Part shown: piece after piece, positions 18,163-57,677 of the stretch
Position numbering within the stretch: the stretch's first letter is position 1
Layout of the letters: every line of letters starts with the position of its first letter
Assembly: GCF_003449035.1 (NCBI RefSeq)
Contig: NZ_QRGB01000001.1
Span: 2,914,001-2,978,000 of the forward strand
Reading direction: 5' to 3'
DNA length: 64,000 nt
Source of the DNA: Pedobacter indicus
GTDB taxonomy: Bacteria; Bacteroidota; Bacteroidia; Sphingobacteriales; Sphingobacteriaceae
Program-made: the position numbers and the translations under genes
The notes under the pieces: model-generated
Databases searched by the model: none
What the model was told of the DNA's origin: nothing
Seen by the model: the letters and a program-made list of their open reading frames with translations, nothing else

Positions 18163-18567
18163 ATGAAGAAGGATTTACCTGAAAATATTGTCGAGGACAT
18201 TAGTATTGCGGTTAGCTTGGAAGGTGGGACTCCTGAGACGAAAATATGGCGCGTCTATCTGATCAACCAGAAAAACGAAACACTTAGAAATGTGTTGGTA
18301 ACGTCAAAGGGATACGATCGCAGTGAGGGAAAAGATATTAAGACAAGTATTTTGCGCCATTTTCTTGGCGATGTTAAAGGACGATCCTCAGCGTTAATCG
18401 AACCAATCGATGATGCACTCTTTGGCCTCACCAATGAGTATTGGTTAAGTTATTATATCGATGACGTTATCTATGACAAGAAATTCATCTTTCTACCCGA
18501 AAGTATCGTCGACTCTAACTTTATAAAATTGCCACTTCTGAATAAACCGGGTGTATTGATTGGGTGA
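18163..18567 (+). CDS. conserved hypothetical protein downstream of topA
   Basis: A 134-residue soluble protein with no recognised domain. It begins 6 bases after topA, preceded by a short spacer, and is probably cotranscribed with it. Visible features are a beta-rich pattern (DISIAVSLEGG, KIWRVYLINQKNETLRNVLVTSKG) and a hydrophobic C-terminal end. It looks like one of the small uncharacterised proteins conserved in Sphingobacteria, though I cannot name a family. The stop codon lies within a perfect 15-base inverted repeat. Confidence 0.75.
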   Translation: MKKDLPENIVEDISIAVSLEGGTPETKIWRVYLINQKNETLRNVLVTSKGYDRSEGKDIKTSILRHFLGDVKGRSSALIEPIDDALFGLTNEYWLSYYIDDVIYDKKFIFLPESIVDSNFIKLPLLNKPGVLIG

Positions 18568-18590
18568 GGATTTGAACCCAATCAATACAC
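18551..18590. repeat. perfect 15-base inverted repeat over a stop codon
   Basis: GTGTATTGATTGGGT (18551-18565) is followed after 10 bases by its exact complement (18576-18590). No T-run follows, so it is not a standard terminator; the standard one lies at 18649-18685. Confidence 0.9.
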
Positions 18591-41147: not shown

Positions 41148-41217
41148 AGCTCTATAATTTTTCTAAAAATCAAAGGTAATAAATTGAGCCGAGAACCCTC
41201 TTGATACAAAAAAAACC

Positions 41218-41225
41218 TAAGTTTG
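41218..41225 (+). promoter_or_regulatory. -7 box (TAAGTTTG) of the MFS gene
   Basis: Consensus match with a predicted leader of about 29 bases. A seven-codon open frame (41238-41261) lies in this leader and its TGA overlaps the MFS ATG. Confidence 0.55.
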
Positions 41226-41257
41226 CAGTGCAATTCAATGAGCAGACAAAGAGACGT

Positions 41258-42493
41258 ATGAAAAAGTTTATCCGATTGTATATCAGCGCCTACAGTGGTT
41301 TATCTCAACCCGCCTGGATGCTGTCGCTTGTAATGTTGCTGAACAGGATGGGTGCTATGGTGATCCCTTTTCTCGGACTCTATATGACCGAACATCTTCA
41401 TTTCACGTTGAAAGAAACAGGTTTGGTGCTTAGCTTTTTTGGAATCGGAGCCATTTCAGGGTCTTATATCGGTGGGCGACTTACCGATCTCGTGGGGCAC
41501 TTTAAGGTCCAAGCCTCTAGTCTCTTTCTTAGTGTACCGCTATTTTTCGTAGTTCCGGTCCTACAAACGCCATTTCAATTAAGCATCGGTATTCTTGTGT
41601 TAAGCCTCGTCACCGAAATTTTCCGTCCAGCCAACTCGGTATCCATCGCCTACTATGCAAAGCCCGAAAACCTGACGCGGGCTTTGTCACTCAACCGCAT
41701 GGCCTTGAACCTCGGTTTCTCAATCGGCCCAGCAGTTGGCGGATTCTTAGCGGCCTTATCTTATAACTGGCTTTTCTATGGCAACGGACTCAGTGCTGCT
41801 TTGGCCGGCTTCGTATTTTATGCGTACTTTAGAAGACGAAAAGGAAATGAGAGGCTCCTGAACAAGAACGCGTCACAACAAAAAAATGCTCTGGGTTCCG
41901 ACCTTAAAAATGAGGCTCAAGTGCGTTCACCGTACAGAGATAAGTACTTTCTGATTTTCAGCTTCCTATGCCTGTTATTTGCCATTTGCTTCTTTCAATT
42001 GCTCAGTACACTTCCGTTATTTTATAAACAAGAATTCCACTTGGAAGATAGTGGCGTCGGACTCATTCTGGCGTTCAACGGATTTATTGTATTTCTACTC
42101 GAGATGCTTTTAGTGCATCTGGCCGAAAAGAAGATGACTACCTTCCAGTCGATCGTTTTCGGAACCCTTCTTCTGAGCATATCTTTTGCACTCTTACTTA
42201 TTCACAGTGGCATTTGGGTGCTTTTTGTTGCTATGTTTATTTTTAGCGTATCCGAAATATTTGTTCTTCCGTTTACCTCGACCGTTACTTTAAAACGAGC
42301 ACACAAATCCAATCAAGGCGCCTATATGGGACTGAATGGACTTGCTTTCTCGGCAGCACATATCGTTTCTCCTTCCCTCGGAACGCAAATCGCCGCCAAT
42401 TACGGTTTTGACGCCCTGTGGCTATCCATAGCTATAGTCTCGTTGCTAGTCACGTTCGGATTCTACTTTTTACGAAATAAATTCAGAGCCTAA
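41258..42493 (+). CDS. major facilitator superfamily transporter
   Basis: A 411-residue protein with about 12 transmembrane helices. The loop 2-3 motif GSYIGGRLTDLVGHFKV matches the MFS signature GxxxDRxGRR-like pattern in weakened form. The start MKKFIRLYIS is preferred because the upstream extension falls in the promoter. It resembles MDR/YdeE-type efflux proteins; substrate unknown. Confidence 0.88.
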   Translation: MKKFIRLYISAYSGLSQPAWMLSLVMLLNRMGAMVIPFLGLYMTEHLHFTLKETGLVLSFFGIGAISGSYIGGRLTDLVGHFKVQASSLFLSVPLFFVVPVLQTPFQLSIGILVLSLVTEIFRPANSVSIAYYAKPENLTRALSLNRMALNLGFSIGPAVGGFLAALSYNWLFYGNGLSAALAGFVFYAYFRRRKGNERLLNKNASQQKNALGSDLKNEAQVRSPYRDKYFLIFSFLCLLFAICFFQLLSTLPLFYKQEFHLEDSGVGLILAFNGFIVFLLEMLLVHLAEKKMTTFQSIVFGTLLLSISFALLLIHSGIWVLFVAMFIFSVSEIFVLPFTSTVTLKRAHKSNQGAYMGLNGLAFSAAHIVSPSLGTQIAANYGFDALWLSIAIVSLLVTFGFYFLRNKFRA

Positions 42494-42579
42494 AGTCCAA
42501 ACAAATTCATTCTATAAAACAGAAGATCAAAACAATTGTTATTCTCTTACCAATCATAACATTAGGAAAGGAGAACGAC

Positions 42580-42921
42580 ATGAACATTGAAAACGACAGC
42601 AAGTACGGCAGACCCGGAAAAGAGACCCACGATAAAATCGAAAACGAACCAAACTGGGGAGATGATAAACGCAAGGTAAATCCTGCGAATGAAGATGAAC
42701 GAGCTGAAAACCGAAAAGTAAGCTCAGAAAAGTTCGAGGAAAAGAGTGCTGACGAAGAATCTAAGGACAGCACCCACCCCGATCATAAGAAAGACACCCA
42801 AAGCAGCCAGAGCAAGGACCCGACACGAAAAAACGAGGCTAATCAAGGTTCAAGCGACCTACGTACCCGCACCAGAACTCATTTTCGGCGTGAAGGTGAA
42901 GGGCGTCCGGAACCTGAATAA
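42580..42921 (+). CDS. small disordered, highly charged protein
   Basis: A 113-residue protein almost without hydrophobic residues, rich in Glu, Lys, Asp, Arg, Asn and Ser, and therefore probably unstructured. A good ribosome binding site (GGAAAGGAG) lies 7 bases before the ATG, which supports translation. It is similar in style to stress- or desiccation-related hydrophilic proteins, but no motif confirms this. It stands between the MFS gene and the S46 peptidase. Confidence 0.65.
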   Translation: MNIENDSKYGRPGKETHDKIENEPNWGDDKRKVNPANEDERAENRKVSSEKFEEKSADEESKDSTHPDHKKDTQSSQSKDPTRKNEANQGSSDLRTRTRTHFRREGEGRPEPE

Positions 42922-42943
42922 TTCGTTGAAATGATTTTGCCGT

Positions 42944-42984
42944 ATGTATTATTTAATGCAATTTTGGAGCATTAAATAATACAT
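42944..42984 (+). promoter_or_regulatory. 16-base perfect inverted repeat before the S46 peptidase
   Basis: ATGTATTATTTAATGC (42944-42959) and its exact complement (42969-42984) surround AATTTTGGA. The loop holds the TTTTG of a weak -7 box (CAATTTTG, 42959-42966) and a GGAG that could pair with 16S rRNA. The repeat ends 2 bases before the ATG at 42987. It could be a protein-binding operator or an mRNA hairpin. Confidence 0.75.
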
Positions 42985-42986
42985 CT

Positions 42987-45137
42987 ATGAAAAAAATATT
43001 CCTTTTTATTTTACTCGCAGCCACTACCTTTTCTGTAAAAGCAGATGAAGGAATGTGGTTTCTGATGCATATTGAGCGCCTCAACGAACGTGATATGCAG
43101 AAGATGGGTCTCCAACTGACGGCAGAGGAGATCTACAGCGTTAATAATTCAAGCCTCAAAGACGCCATCGTACAATTCGGTGGAGGCTGTACTGCTGAAA
43201 TGGTATCCAGCACAGGATTAGTCATGACCAATCACCACTGTGGTTATGGAGCAATTGCAGAGCTTTCTACTCCGGAGAACGACCATCTAACCAACGGTTT
43301 TTGGGCTAAGACCAAAGCAGACGAGTTAAAACCGAAGTCCCTTTCGGTACGTTTCTTCGTTCGCATGGATGACGTCTCAGAACGCATCCTAGGCAAGGTA
43401 AATGATGAGATGAGTGAAGAAGAACGCGAAAAAGTGATCAACCAAGAAATCGCTTTAATCGAACAAGAAAACAATGAAGGCGGGAAATACACCGTATCCG
43501 TAAAATCTTTTTATCAAGGTAACGAATACTACTACTTTGTATACCAAGACTATACCGATGTTCGCCTAGTAGGGACACCTCCAAATAGCATTGGTAAATT
43601 TGGTGGCGATACAGATAACTGGGAATGGCCACGTCACACCGGCGATTTCTCTTTATTTCGTGTGTATGCAGACAAAAACGGAAACCCAGCCGAATACTCG
43701 AAGGATAATGTACCTTTAAAACCTAAACATCACCTTCCTATCAGCCTAAACGGATTTAAAGAAGGCGACTTCGCTATGATTTTAGGATATCCGGGGCGCA
43801 CCAACCGTTGGATGCCATCGGCAGGGATTTCTCAAAACGTAAATTTCGCCTACCCAGCATGGGTTGAAGCATCCAAAACTGGCATGGACGTGATGAAGAA
43901 ATACATGGATCGCGATCAGGCTATCCGTTTGAACTATGCATCCAAATATGCCGGAGTTGCCAACTATTGGAAAAACCGTCAAGGAATGATTGACGCTTTG
44001 AAACAACATCAAACTGCAGAGACCAAAGCAGCGTCTGAAAAGAAATTTAACAAATGGGCTAAAAAACGGAAGAATCGCGAAAAATACGGCAATGTCATGC
44101 AGGTGATCAACGATTACTACTCTTACACCAATGAAATGTCACGCCATGACAACTACATTTCGGGTGGTATCCTTCGCAGCAGTTCACTAGCACCACTACC
44201 CTATGTTATTGGCAATGGCATATCATTCTACATTCAGCAGAATGATGCTAAAAAAGCAGAGCTATTACCTAAATTATTGGAACAAGTAAACAATTCGTAC
44301 GAGAAGCTGTACATGCCGCTTGAGAAAGACCTACTTACTGCGCTTTTAAACCTCTATGTACAAAAAGGTGGTGATGAGCTGATTGCTCCTGGAATTGCCG
44401 AAATCGCTAAAGAAAACAATGGCAACTTTGGCCCTTACCTCAATAGCGCATTTGAGACGAGCATCTTCGCTGACAAAGCGAAGCTATTAGCATTTATCAA
44501 CAACCCAGATGCTCAACAATTAGCGAACGACCCACTATATCAACTATCAAATGATATCATCGCCCGTTACCGCTATGTTTCAGATGAAACCAAAGAAAAG
44601 CAAGCTGAATTCGAAAAAGCATACCGATTGATGGTACAAGGCATGCGCAAGGCCAATCCGAAAACCAAATATTATCCGGATGCAAACAGCACATTGCGTC
44701 TATCTTATGGAACCATCCGCGCATTACCTGAAGATCCAAGCAATGATGCTGAAGTCAATAACTACACTACCCTAAAAGGCACCATAGCGAAATACAAACC
44801 AAACGACCCAGAGTTCGATTTGCCACAAAAATTAATCGATCTCTACGAAGCAAAAGACTTTGGTCAGTATGCCGACAAAGAAGGTTACATGCCTGTAAAC
44901 TTTCTTTCAGACAATGATATCACCGGTGGTAACTCAGGATCCCCTGTACTAAACGGTAAAGGCGAACTACTAGGCTTAGCTTTCGACGGAAACATTGAAG
45001 CCATGGCCGGAGATGTGATCTTCGACCCAGAGCTACAGCGTACCATCAGCGTAGATATTCGCTATGTATTGTTTATCATCGATAAGTTTGCAGGAGCAAG
45101 CCATATTATTGATGAATTCACATTAGTAAAAGATTAA
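42987..45137 (+). CDS. S46-family dipeptidyl peptidase (DPP7/DPP11 type)
   Basis: A 716-residue exported serine peptidase that releases dipeptides from protein N-termini, characteristic of Bacteroidota. Signal peptide residues 1-19 (MKKIFLFILLAATTFSVKA). The chymotrypsin-like catalytic histidine is in MTNHHCGYGAI (about residue 84); the nucleophile is the serine in TGGNSGSPVLNGKGE (about residue 651). SIGKFGGDTDNWEWPRHTGD near residue 205 holds the catalytic Asp region. Whether it is DPP7- (hydrophobic P1) or DPP11-like (acidic P1) cannot be settled from sequence alone. Confidence 0.95.
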   Translation: MKKIFLFILLAATTFSVKADEGMWFLMHIERLNERDMQKMGLQLTAEEIYSVNNSSLKDAIVQFGGGCTAEMVSSTGLVMTNHHCGYGAIAELSTPENDHLTNGFWAKTKADELKPKSLSVRFFVRMDDVSERILGKVNDEMSEEEREKVINQEIALIEQENNEGGKYTVSVKSFYQGNEYYYFVYQDYTDVRLVGTPPNSIGKFGGDTDNWEWPRHTGDFSLFRVYADKNGNPAEYSKDNVPLKPKHHLPISLNGFKEGDFAMILGYPGRTNRWMPSAGISQNVNFAYPAWVEASKTGMDVMKKYMDRDQAIRLNYASKYAGVANYWKNRQGMIDALKQHQTAETKAASEKKFNKWAKKRKNREKYGNVMQVINDYYSYTNEMSRHDNYISGGILRSSSLAPLPYVIGNGISFYIQQNDAKKAELLPKLLEQVNNSYEKLYMPLEKDLLTALLNLYVQKGGDELIAPGIAEIAKENNGNFGPYLNSAFETSIFADKAKLLAFINNPDAQQLANDPLYQLSNDIIARYRYVSDETKEKQAEFEKAYRLMVQGMRKANPKTKYYPDANSTLRLSYGTIRALPEDPSNDAEVNNYTTLKGTIAKYKPNDPEFDLPQKLIDLYEAKDFGQYADKEGYMPVNFLSDNDITGGNSGSPVLNGKGELLGLAFDGNIEAMAGDVIFDPELQRTISVDIRYVLFIIDKFAGASHIIDEFTLVKD

Positions 45138-45184: not shown

Positions 45185-45222
45185 ATCTGGCAGTGGACCT
45201 TATTCACTGCCAGATTTTTTTT
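45185..45222 (+). terminator. terminator behind the S46 peptidase
   Basis: ATCTGGCAGTG (45185-45195) and its exact complement (45205-45215) make an 11-base stem followed by T8. The T-run touches the -7 box of ssrA. Confidence 0.92.
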
Positions 45223-45248: not shown

Positions 45249-45612
45249 GGGGTCGACCGGAATTGACAGGATGGAGACGGTTATGTAAGCATGCAGCGCG
45301 TTGTTAGTCTAGCGCTATAATCTGAACTTTCAACTTTTTAAATGGCGAAAATAACTACGCCTTAGCTGCCTAATTTAGAATTAGAATAGCTTTTGTCCAG
45401 TCTGGGTTTTGTTCTGTAGCTTAGACAAACGGGCATCGAATTATGGAACTAGCTACTTCAAAGCTGTGGTGAAGTAGCGAAACAAAGCAGATAAGGATAT
45501 GGTATAGGTAAGCAACCAACCTTCCATATCTCGAAAACCAAATGGAAGCTAAGCATGTAGAAAGCATATACAGTACCATGTTTGGACGAGGGTTCGAATC
45601 CCTCCGACTCCA
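45249..45612 (+). ncRNA. ssrA: transfer-messenger RNA
   Basis: The 5' end GGGGTCG pairs with CGACTCC (45605-45611) to close the tRNA-like acceptor stem, and the T-arm GGGTTCGAATCCC is next to the 3' end. The tag frame reads GGC GAA AAT AAC TAC GCC TTA GCT GCC TAA (45344-45373), giving GENNYALAA, as is usual for Bacteroidota. With SmpB (outside the window) it rescues stalled ribosomes. The terminal CCA is not encoded. The 3' end of this gene is a known integration site for genomic islands, and an accessory block begins just behind it. Confidence 0.97.
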
Positions 45613-45645
45613 CAAAGACAGCTGTAAACCAAGTGTTTACAACAC

Positions 45646-55859: not shown

Positions 55860-57479
55860 CTACTCCTTTTCAACCGGTTCAAAATCTGAATCTTCTATCC
55901 AGCTGGTTTTCATTTTTTCCCCTTTCATAAAGCGTTCATAAAAGTTAGCTAGGTCGGTTCGCGAGTATGGGTATTTATCAAACACGGAACCTTTTCCGAA
56001 CATACGTGGATCTTTCTGTGCTTTCAATTCCGCTTCCATTTGAGATTTTAGGGTGTCTTTAATTTCAGCATAATTGGGATCATCAGCTAAGTTATTCATG
56101 CTATAAGGGTCAACATCAACCTGATAAAGCTCTTCTGTGGGTTTCTTTCCGAAAGACAAGAGCCATAAATCTTGATGTCGCCCGTGCCGGTTAGCATTCA
56201 GCAGGGTTGTCTTTGTAGGTCCGCCATCGGTTTCCATATAGCCGGTTTCAGGATTACCCGAAGGCCAGCGATTAGGTTCATAGTTTTTGTGAAAAATAAA
56301 GTTATCCTTAACAATGGCACGAACTGGATAGCCGCGATCTTGCGGTCGCCCTACGTCTGTCCGCTCCCTACCAAGAAGCACGAAATCACGTAAAGGCTTT
56401 ACATGATCATTGTCTTGCGATTTCAATATATCCAGTAAAGATTTCCCTTGCACAGCTTGCATATTGGCTGATTTGTCATTGAGTCCGGCTAGATCCAAAA
56501 ACGTAGGTGCAAAGTCAATAAAGCTGACATACTCACTAATTACCCTTCCCGGATTTGATATTTGCCCCTTCCACATGATTGCCAGCGGAAGATGATTGTC
56601 ATATTCATACACATGACCTTTGACGCGAGGAAAAGGCATGCCATTGTCAGAGGTAACTACAATGATTGTATTTTCAAGTTCACCCGCATCTTCCAATACT
56701 TGAAGTACTTCACCCAGTTGCTTATCAAAATATTCCACCTCCAAGGCGTAATCAAGCATGTCGTTTCTAACCGTATCGTTATCCATCCAAAAGTCTGGAA
56801 CGTTGTCAATATCGCTTAGCTTCTTCCCTCCTTTTTCTACACCTGATCCATACTCATATCCCCGATGAGGCTCAAACGATCCAAACCAAAACATAAATGG
56901 TTGACTTTCAGACTTATCATTAAGAAAAGCAGCAAAGTTTGCGGCATAATCTAACGTTGAAATATTTTTCGTCGGCGCATTAGCTTTTTTTATATCGCTA
57001 TACTGAGCACCAGTAAGCGATCTGGGTTCTCCGTTTTTATCAACAGCAACACCCGGTGCCCAGCCTTTCCCGGTGTAGCCGACATGATATCCATGTTGAC
57101 CTAGCGCCTCCATAATCGTAGTGAACTTCGTCGGAAAATAAGGGTTATGATTTCCCGCTTCCTCTAGCTGCCAAGGATTACGACCGGTTAGAATACTGGC
57201 TCTAGAGGGTGCACATTTAGCATTTGGTGTGTAAGCATTCGTAAACAGTAAACCCGCTTCTGCTACCCGATCAAAATTGGGCGTGCTCACCCAGTCTACC
57301 TGACTATACGCACTCATATGCTGCCAGGAAGCATCATCAGCAATACAAAATAAAATATTAGGTTGCTTTACTTGGTCTTGTGCCTTAACTGAAAGAAAGA
57401 AAAATGAGGTAATTAAGCATAAGGCCAACAATTTCTTTATTAATTTTAGAAATGAGCTGTTTTTGAGCAAGTGATTCAT
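55860..57479 (-). CDS. secreted sulfatase (S1 family)
   Basis: A 539-residue formylglycine-dependent sulfatase. A basic, hydrophobic signal region (residues about 15-33) precedes the mature protein. NILFCIADDASW holds the metal-binding Asp pair; the modified cysteine is Cys89 in CAPSRASILTGR. The Cx(P)SR motif is the type needing oxidation by anSME or FGE (not in the window). N-sulfoglucosamine sulfohydrolase-like members share this layout, but substrate is not decided. An inverted repeat overlaps its presumed promoter. Confidence 0.93.
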   Translation of the reverse strand: MNHLLKNSSFLKLIKKLLALCLITSFFFLSVKAQDQVKQPNILFCIADDASWQHMSAYSQVDWVSTPNFDRVAEAGLLFTNAYTPNAKCAPSRASILTGRNPWQLEEAGNHNPYFPTKFTTIMEALGQHGYHVGYTGKGWAPGVAVDKNGEPRSLTGAQYSDIKKANAPTKNISTLDYAANFAAFLNDKSESQPFMFWFGSFEPHRGYEYGSGVEKGGKKLSDIDNVPDFWMDNDTVRNDMLDYALEVEYFDKQLGEVLQVLEDAGELENTIIVVTSDNGMPFPRVKGHVYEYDNHLPLAIMWKGQISNPGRVISEYVSFIDFAPTFLDLAGLNDKSANMQAVQGKSLLDILKSQDNDHVKPLRDFVLLGRERTDVGRPQDRGYPVRAIVKDNFIFHKNYEPNRWPSGNPETGYMETDGGPTKTTLLNANRHGRHQDLWLLSFGKKPTEELYQVDVDPYSMNNLADDPNYAEIKDTLKSQMEAELKAQKDPRMFGKGSVFDKYPYSRTDLANFYERFMKGEKMKTSWIEDSDFEPVEKE

Positions 57480-57488
57480 AAAAGGCGC

Positions 57489-57512
57489 ACTTAGATTTAC
57501 TCAAATCTAAGT
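57489..57512 (-). promoter_or_regulatory. inverted repeat overlapping the sulfatase -7 box
   Basis: ACTTAGATTT (57489-57498), a 4-base spacer and the exact complement (57503-57512). On minus it contains TAGATTTG (57502-57509), a -7 match that would start transcription about 19 bases before the ATG at 57479. The layout suits an operator. On plus the repeat is followed by T5, but no plus-strand gene precedes it. Confidence 0.65.
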
Positions 57513-57677
57513 TTTTATTACATAAATACAATATACATATCCGTTATCCGTATCATCAAACATATAATTGAGTCGAGGTAACTCAAAACTAATTGAATAG
57601 CTTCATCGATAACATTAATTTCATGATTTTCTTTTATCCTAATTAATAAGAATTATCAAAAAACCATCTGAAAATAG

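Follow-up and report, generated by a model that had tools for sequence, protein, structure and literature searches.

The window analysed here, a 64,000-nucleotide stretch of Pedobacter indicus DNA, carries a gene for an S46 peptidase whose start codon is closely preceded by a long perfect inverted repeat. The repeat overlaps a predicted promoter, and the genes upstream of it point in the same direction. The features of the locus are as follows.

41201-42493, + strand: MFS transporter gene, whose counterpart lies directly upstream of the peptidase gene in the genus mate
42580-42921, + strand: hydrophilic orphan open reading frame (ORF) of 113 aa, upstream of the peptidase gene and co-directional with it
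42937-42939, + strand: putative -33 element TTG, inside TTTTG at 42935-42939, assigned from family spacing and consensus
42944-42959, + strand: left arm of the palindrome, ATGTATTATTTAATGC, in the promoter spacer; it shares its final base with the start of the -7 box
42959-42966, + strand: putative -7 box CAATTTTG, one change from the consensus TAnnTTTG
42960-42968, + strand: centre of the palindrome, AATTTTGGA, 9 bases between the arms
42969-42984, + strand: right arm, GCATTAAATAATACAT, which, given the predicted start, accounts for the bulk of the peptidase mRNA's 5' leader
42971, + strand: predicted transcription start, from the published position of the -7 box
42987-45137, + strand: S46 peptidase gene (DPP7/DPP11 family), 716 aa (Pfam PF10459, E 1.7e-235)
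45185-45215, + strand: terminator-like hairpin with a T tail, behind the peptidase gene

The solved relatives of the peptidase are DPP11 and DPP BII; the NCBIfam Dpp7 model gave 684 bits, below its cut-off of 1200. The N-terminus has a hydrophobic stretch that, judged by eye, resembles a signal peptide. The 113-aa ORF had no match in Pfam or NCBIfam and none in the genus mate or the other 200 family genomes searched, and its codon score was positive in its own frame only. Its ATG is preceded by a Shine-Dalgarno-like sequence, GGAAAGGAG, which is unusual for the phylum. With this ORF included, the MFS gene and the peptidase gene are 493 bp apart in the window, compared with 100 bp in the genus mate. 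Directly 3' of the peptidase lies the tmRNA gene (45249-45613), with the tag GENNYALAA.

A reading of the sequence alone had pointed to a perfect inverted repeat just ahead of the peptidase ATG, with TTTTG and GGAG at its centre, and this description holds. All 16 of the 16 arm bases are complementary around a 9-base centre, both motifs are present, and the right arm ends 2 bases (42985-42986) before the ATG at 42987. The GGAG occupies 42966-42969 and so reaches one base into the right arm. The G+C content of the palindrome is 0.20. The palindrome exceeds local chance expectation: among 20,000 leaders simulated with a first-order Markov model of the 65 bases at 42922-42986, none had a perfect repeat of at least 16 bp, and repeats of at least 14, 12, and 10 bp arose in 2, 13, and 120 of them, respectively.

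We found 22 perfect repeats with arms of at least 12 in 384 kb of the palindrome's own genome (window included), and 14 of the 21 others followed the 3' end of an ORF at a distance of 45 nt or less, a terminator-like placement. Among 252 ORF starts drawn from the same 384 kb, which are mechanical ORF starts and not curated ones, the peptidase repeat was the longest perfect repeat ending at a start codon (16, followed by 12 and 10). Intrinsic terminators have a G+C-rich stem with a T run behind it, and the peptidase repeat does not appear in our list of terminator-like sites. Neither DNA similarity nor a search with the arm pattern found a second copy in the 3.47-Mb genome, and Rfam gave no match at the palindrome up to an E value of 1.

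Several other repeats were seen during these scans. A perfect repeat with 15-base arms and a 10-base centre, GTGTATTGATTGGGT / ACCCAATCAATACAC, lies at 18551-18590 of the window; its other strand reads GGGTTCAAATCCTC, which we take to resemble a tRNA T arm, and no tRNA was found at these positions. At L136, 4796-4873, related motifs (TGTTTGTTTCAAACA / TGTTTGAAACAAACA / GGTTTGTTTCGAACC) cluster in front of a 158-aa ORF and may represent multiple operator sites. Two distant repeats (L129, 1998-2043, and L137, 19916-19973) have TCGGACATTGTTCGGA in common and are possibly copies of a repeated element of this genome.

Primary-sigma promoters of Bacteroidota are described in PMC7366714 as having TAnnTTTG at -7 and TTTG near -33. 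The window has TTG at 42937, a 19-bp spacer, and then CAATTTTG, so that by sequence both a -7 box and a -33 TTG are present at suitable spacing; this box is the sole YAnnTTTG on the + strand of 42301-42990. For comparison we used the closest family orthologues, defined as the 79 of 301 genomes that matched the peptidase at E 1e-250 or better. Leaving out G284 (whose match begins at residue 129), L192, and L212 gave 76 usable leaders, the window's own included. Of these leaders, 61 carried the pattern TTG-N(17-23)-YAnnTTTG within their last 90 nt (57 of the 76 at a spacing of 19 bp) and 15 did not; Markov shuffles contained an average of 1.65 promoter-bearing leaders. When similar leaders were thinned, 36 of 50 still had the promoter. 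The genus mate, whose peptidase is 87% identical to that of the window, has TTG-N19-CAACTTTG.

The suggestion that the centre of the palindrome lies over the -7 region is thus confirmed, since 61 of 76 leaders share the promoter to which the box CAATTTTG belongs. Its arrangement near the start codon, TTG-N19-CAATTTTG, which is found in most family leaders, resembles the Bacteroidota primary-sigma (sigma-ABfr / sigmaA) promoters described in PMC7366714 and PMC9723704. The box begins with C and not with the T of the consensus, as it does in nearly all box-bearing leaders of the family. What sets the peptidase promoter apart from ordinary promoters of this type is the enclosing palindrome, seen in this species only. 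By these sequence comparisons, the conserved object is an ordinary primary-sigma promoter and not the palindrome.

The palindrome was missing from the other 75 usable family leaders, including that of the genus mate, the one genome on which the same-genus comparison rests. The expectation that pairing would be conserved in relatives was therefore not borne out. The longest other perfect repeat among the 76 leaders was 11 bp, a different repeat that lies between the two promoter elements, and no perfect repeat longer than 11 bp was found in the other 111 leader rows of a second collection, which partly overlaps the 76 leaders and includes paralogues. Because the palindrome is absent from these 75 leaders and 111 rows, the comparison does not demonstrate selection for it.

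A separate feature of the family came out of the same leaders. In 11 of the 76 (L144, L157, L162, L164, L167, L168, L169, L171, L183, L189, and L190), the promoter spacer is itself a dyad of the type TTGATTT..AAATCAA, with 11-bp perfect arms in 5. From its sequence, this spacer dyad is a possible conserved operator of S46 genes in Sphingobacterium-like species.

The position of the promoter bears directly on what RNA the gene would produce. In Flavobacterium psychrophilum the -7 box is reported to span -12 to -5 (PMC9723704), which would place +1 near 42971 (base 3 of the right arm) and give a leader of 16 nt. Median leader lengths reported for F. psychrophilum and Bacteroides thetaiotaomicron are 24 and 32 nt, respectively (PMC9723704 and PMC7366714). 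An mRNA starting near 42971 would include 14 of the 16 right-arm bases and none of the left arm. This prediction undercuts the proposal that the gene's own mRNA forms a stable hairpin exposing a ribosome binding site in its loop. The fold itself is predicted to be stable (-16.3 kcal/mol at 37°C, z -7.2; -20.8 kcal/mol at 25°C), but the conserved promoter falls within it and would leave the left arm outside that mRNA. Moreover, 17 nt separate the GGAG from the ATG, and PMC7366714 describes the mRNAs of Bacteroidota as being without classical Shine-Dalgarno sites, so that the GGAG is a poor candidate for a ribosome binding site. We therefore rejected an RNA switch in the gene's own mRNA and regard it as the least credible of the explanations considered.

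Of the tight control that the sequence-only reading had envisaged, the placement of the centre on the -7 region survives, and the own-mRNA hairpin, the GGAG site, and conservation do not. Of the observations that it had named as telling against itself, a start within the right arm is predicted from the published box position, and conservation is absent among the leaders examined.

The reading that we favor, with a probability of about 0.42, is that the promoter-enclosing palindrome acts as a translational insulator against read-through RNA. The ordinary promoter TTG-N19-CAATTTTG would drive expression of the peptidase with a leader of only ~16 nt, and the RNA that it initiates, starting in the right arm and lacking the left arm, would be open to ribosomes. 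RNA entering from the upstream MFS gene or the 113-aa gene would carry both arms and would fold into a stem of 16 bp that stops 2 nt short of the ATG and would hide the start region. The right arm may derive from the left arm by template switching. Along with that origin, we infer the start site, the read-through, the translational block, and any benefit to the cell.

Predicted folds are consistent with such a lock. The start region (-15 to +12) was predicted to have a mean unpaired probability of 0.26 in the read-through RNA and 0.70 in the gene's own RNA; the corresponding values for the genus mate were 0.51 and 0.58. From 42493 to 42987, the scan listed no terminator-like site on the + strand. 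The usual footprint of a ribosome is about 15 nt and the stop codon of the 113-aa ORF lies 22 nt 5' of the stem, so a terminating ribosome would not open it.

A lock of this kind has a precedent in gene e of phage T4, for which PMC3014915 describes a long RNA that is locked and an RNA from a near promoter that is open, with 100-fold less lysozyme from the locked form. The late promoters of gene e lie in the DNA of the 5' strand of the stem, and the leaders of soc, gene 49, and I-TevI are named there as similar. The peptidase locus is alike in having a gene-proximal promoter within the 5' portion of a stem that would be inhibitory, the -7 box occupying the end of the left arm and the loop, and in that the stem would cover the start region in the longer RNAs only (0.26 versus 0.70, as predicted). 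It differs in several respects: T4 uses late phage promoters, whereas the peptidase is a chromosomal gene with a host primary-sigma promoter; the T4 stem hides a Shine-Dalgarno sequence and/or the AUG, whereas the peptidase has no Shine-Dalgarno sequence in range; and the gene e lock was shown by experiment (PMC3014915), whereas that of the peptidase is proposed here from sequence and predicted folds. None of the other leaders examined had such an arrangement. The resemblance would be a likeness in working and is not kept in relatives.

Next in probability, close behind and likewise short of even odds, is the alternative that the palindrome is a neutral relic, in which template switching during replication copied the promoter spacer into the leader, with no regulatory role and with the promoter working as in relatives. 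Occurrence in one species only, among those compared, fits this explanation, as does the report that one template-switch event can create a perfect stem (PMC8794818). The leader in the window is 11 nt shorter than that of the genus mate (box at -28 versus -39). The inner half of the left arm lies in conserved promoter columns and the columns of the right arm carry less information (means of 0.78 and 0.52 bits), so the right arm would be the newer of the two. Consensus identity, however, is nearly equal between the arms (10 of 15 on the left and 9 of 16 on the right), so that this order of events is only weakly indicated by the alignment. An alignment of the right arm with the genus mate is also possible, at the cost of two gaps and one substitution. 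The palindrome is like the template-switch (quasipalindrome) mutations described in PMC8794818 in being a short perfect inverted repeat near a place where relatives have none; the sequences lend weak support to an origin by copying between the arms, whichever the direction of the change. Against a relic stand the perfection of the repeat over 16 bp and its end at the start region, where a functional lock would end, and the evidence from the genus rests on a single genome.

An operator at which a dimeric repressor would occupy the palindrome, block the -7 box, and silence the peptidase promoter is an unlikely explanation. The site is long, symmetric, and AT-rich and its centre coincides with the -7 box, and what speaks for an operator is this position and symmetry. 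DNA similarity found only the mirror copy of the site itself, and the operator is less probable because no second copy of the arms was found elsewhere in the genome, although single-site repressors exist. Arm matches with up to 2 mismatches numbered 15 (7 + 8, the palindrome's own two arms included), compared with 12 (5 + 7) for a reversed control, which does not support a regulon of similar sites. By Pfam, the four nearest genes encode a transporter, two peptidases, and the orphan, with no regulator among them, and the palindrome was not conserved in the leaders compared. A lone arm match with 1 mismatch was set aside, since no second arm was seen around it by eye. An origin as the end of a mobile element was likewise rejected: the genome holds no further copy (next best E 0.43), positions 42494-42943 had no plasmid match, and the palindrome pattern had no exact match among viral contigs. 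Very improbable, finally, is a role as a 3'-end protector or processing site for the RNA of the 113-aa gene. The palindrome lies 22 nt behind the stop codon of that ORF, where many terminator-like repeats of this genome fall, but the stem is followed by CTATGAAAAAAA only, with no T run, the terminator-like scan does not list it, and the ORF is an orphan whose expression is putative.

We also considered whether palindromic promoters form a class in this genome. In 744 kb, a sample that includes the peptidase case and prompted the idea, a perfect repeat of at least 9 bp ended near the start in 3 of 33 promoter genes versus 6 of 497 others, and when the repeat was required to lie across the -7 box, 3 of 20 promoter genes qualified (expected, 0.12 to 0.13). 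A repeat across the -7 box was seen in 0 of 5 promoter genes in a fresh 400 kb of the same genome (expected, 0.07), 0 of 10 in 400 kb of the genus mate (expected, 0.07), 0 of 5 in 400 kb of genome G017 (expected, 0.00), and 0 of 22 S46-flank loci of other species. A looser promoter rule of TAnnTTTG alone, which excludes the peptidase because its box begins with C, gave 3 of 107 in the 744 kb (expected, 0.73); in the new samples it gave 0 of 47 in the same genome (expected, 0.12), 0 of 53 in the genus mate (expected, 0.38), and 1 of 37 in G017 (expected, 0.10). The first hint of a class was thus not repeated, the numbers being small, and we make no claim to one. In our estimate a more general proposal is improbable, namely, that some Bacteroidota genes have a promoter inside a leader palindrome such that only RNA from that promoter is translatable, a terminator-free form of chromosomal insulation that would arise repeatedly by template switching and not by descent, with its own sequence each time.

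Two other genes are candidates for such palindromic promoters. A sulfatase-like gene, its family judged from sequence (ATG at 57479; 57479-57531, minus strand), has TTG-N19-TAGATTTG and a perfect repeat with 10-base arms and a 4-base centre, ACTTAGATTT-gagt-AAATCTAAGT, across the -7 box, in the same layout as at the peptidase; its closest counterpart in the genus mate matches weakly (E 1.6e-11). A 290-aa ORF (L233, 18738, minus strand) has TTG-N18-TATTTTTG, and its -7 box is spanned by a 9-bp repeat, TTTTTCGAG ... CTCGAAAAA.

Taken together, these results describe a species-specific palindrome enclosing a conserved promoter, with a read-through lock as a plausible function and a neutral relic close behind in probability. 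If the lock is real, it would be the chromosomal equivalent of a device known from phage, in a phylum whose ribosomes are not thought to rely on Shine-Dalgarno sequences, and it would show how a single mutation can insulate a gene from those around it. If it is not, the locus would clearly illustrate how a palindrome can tempt one to read it as an operator or RNA switch, and in which comparison nevertheless shows that it is the promoter at the centre that is conserved.
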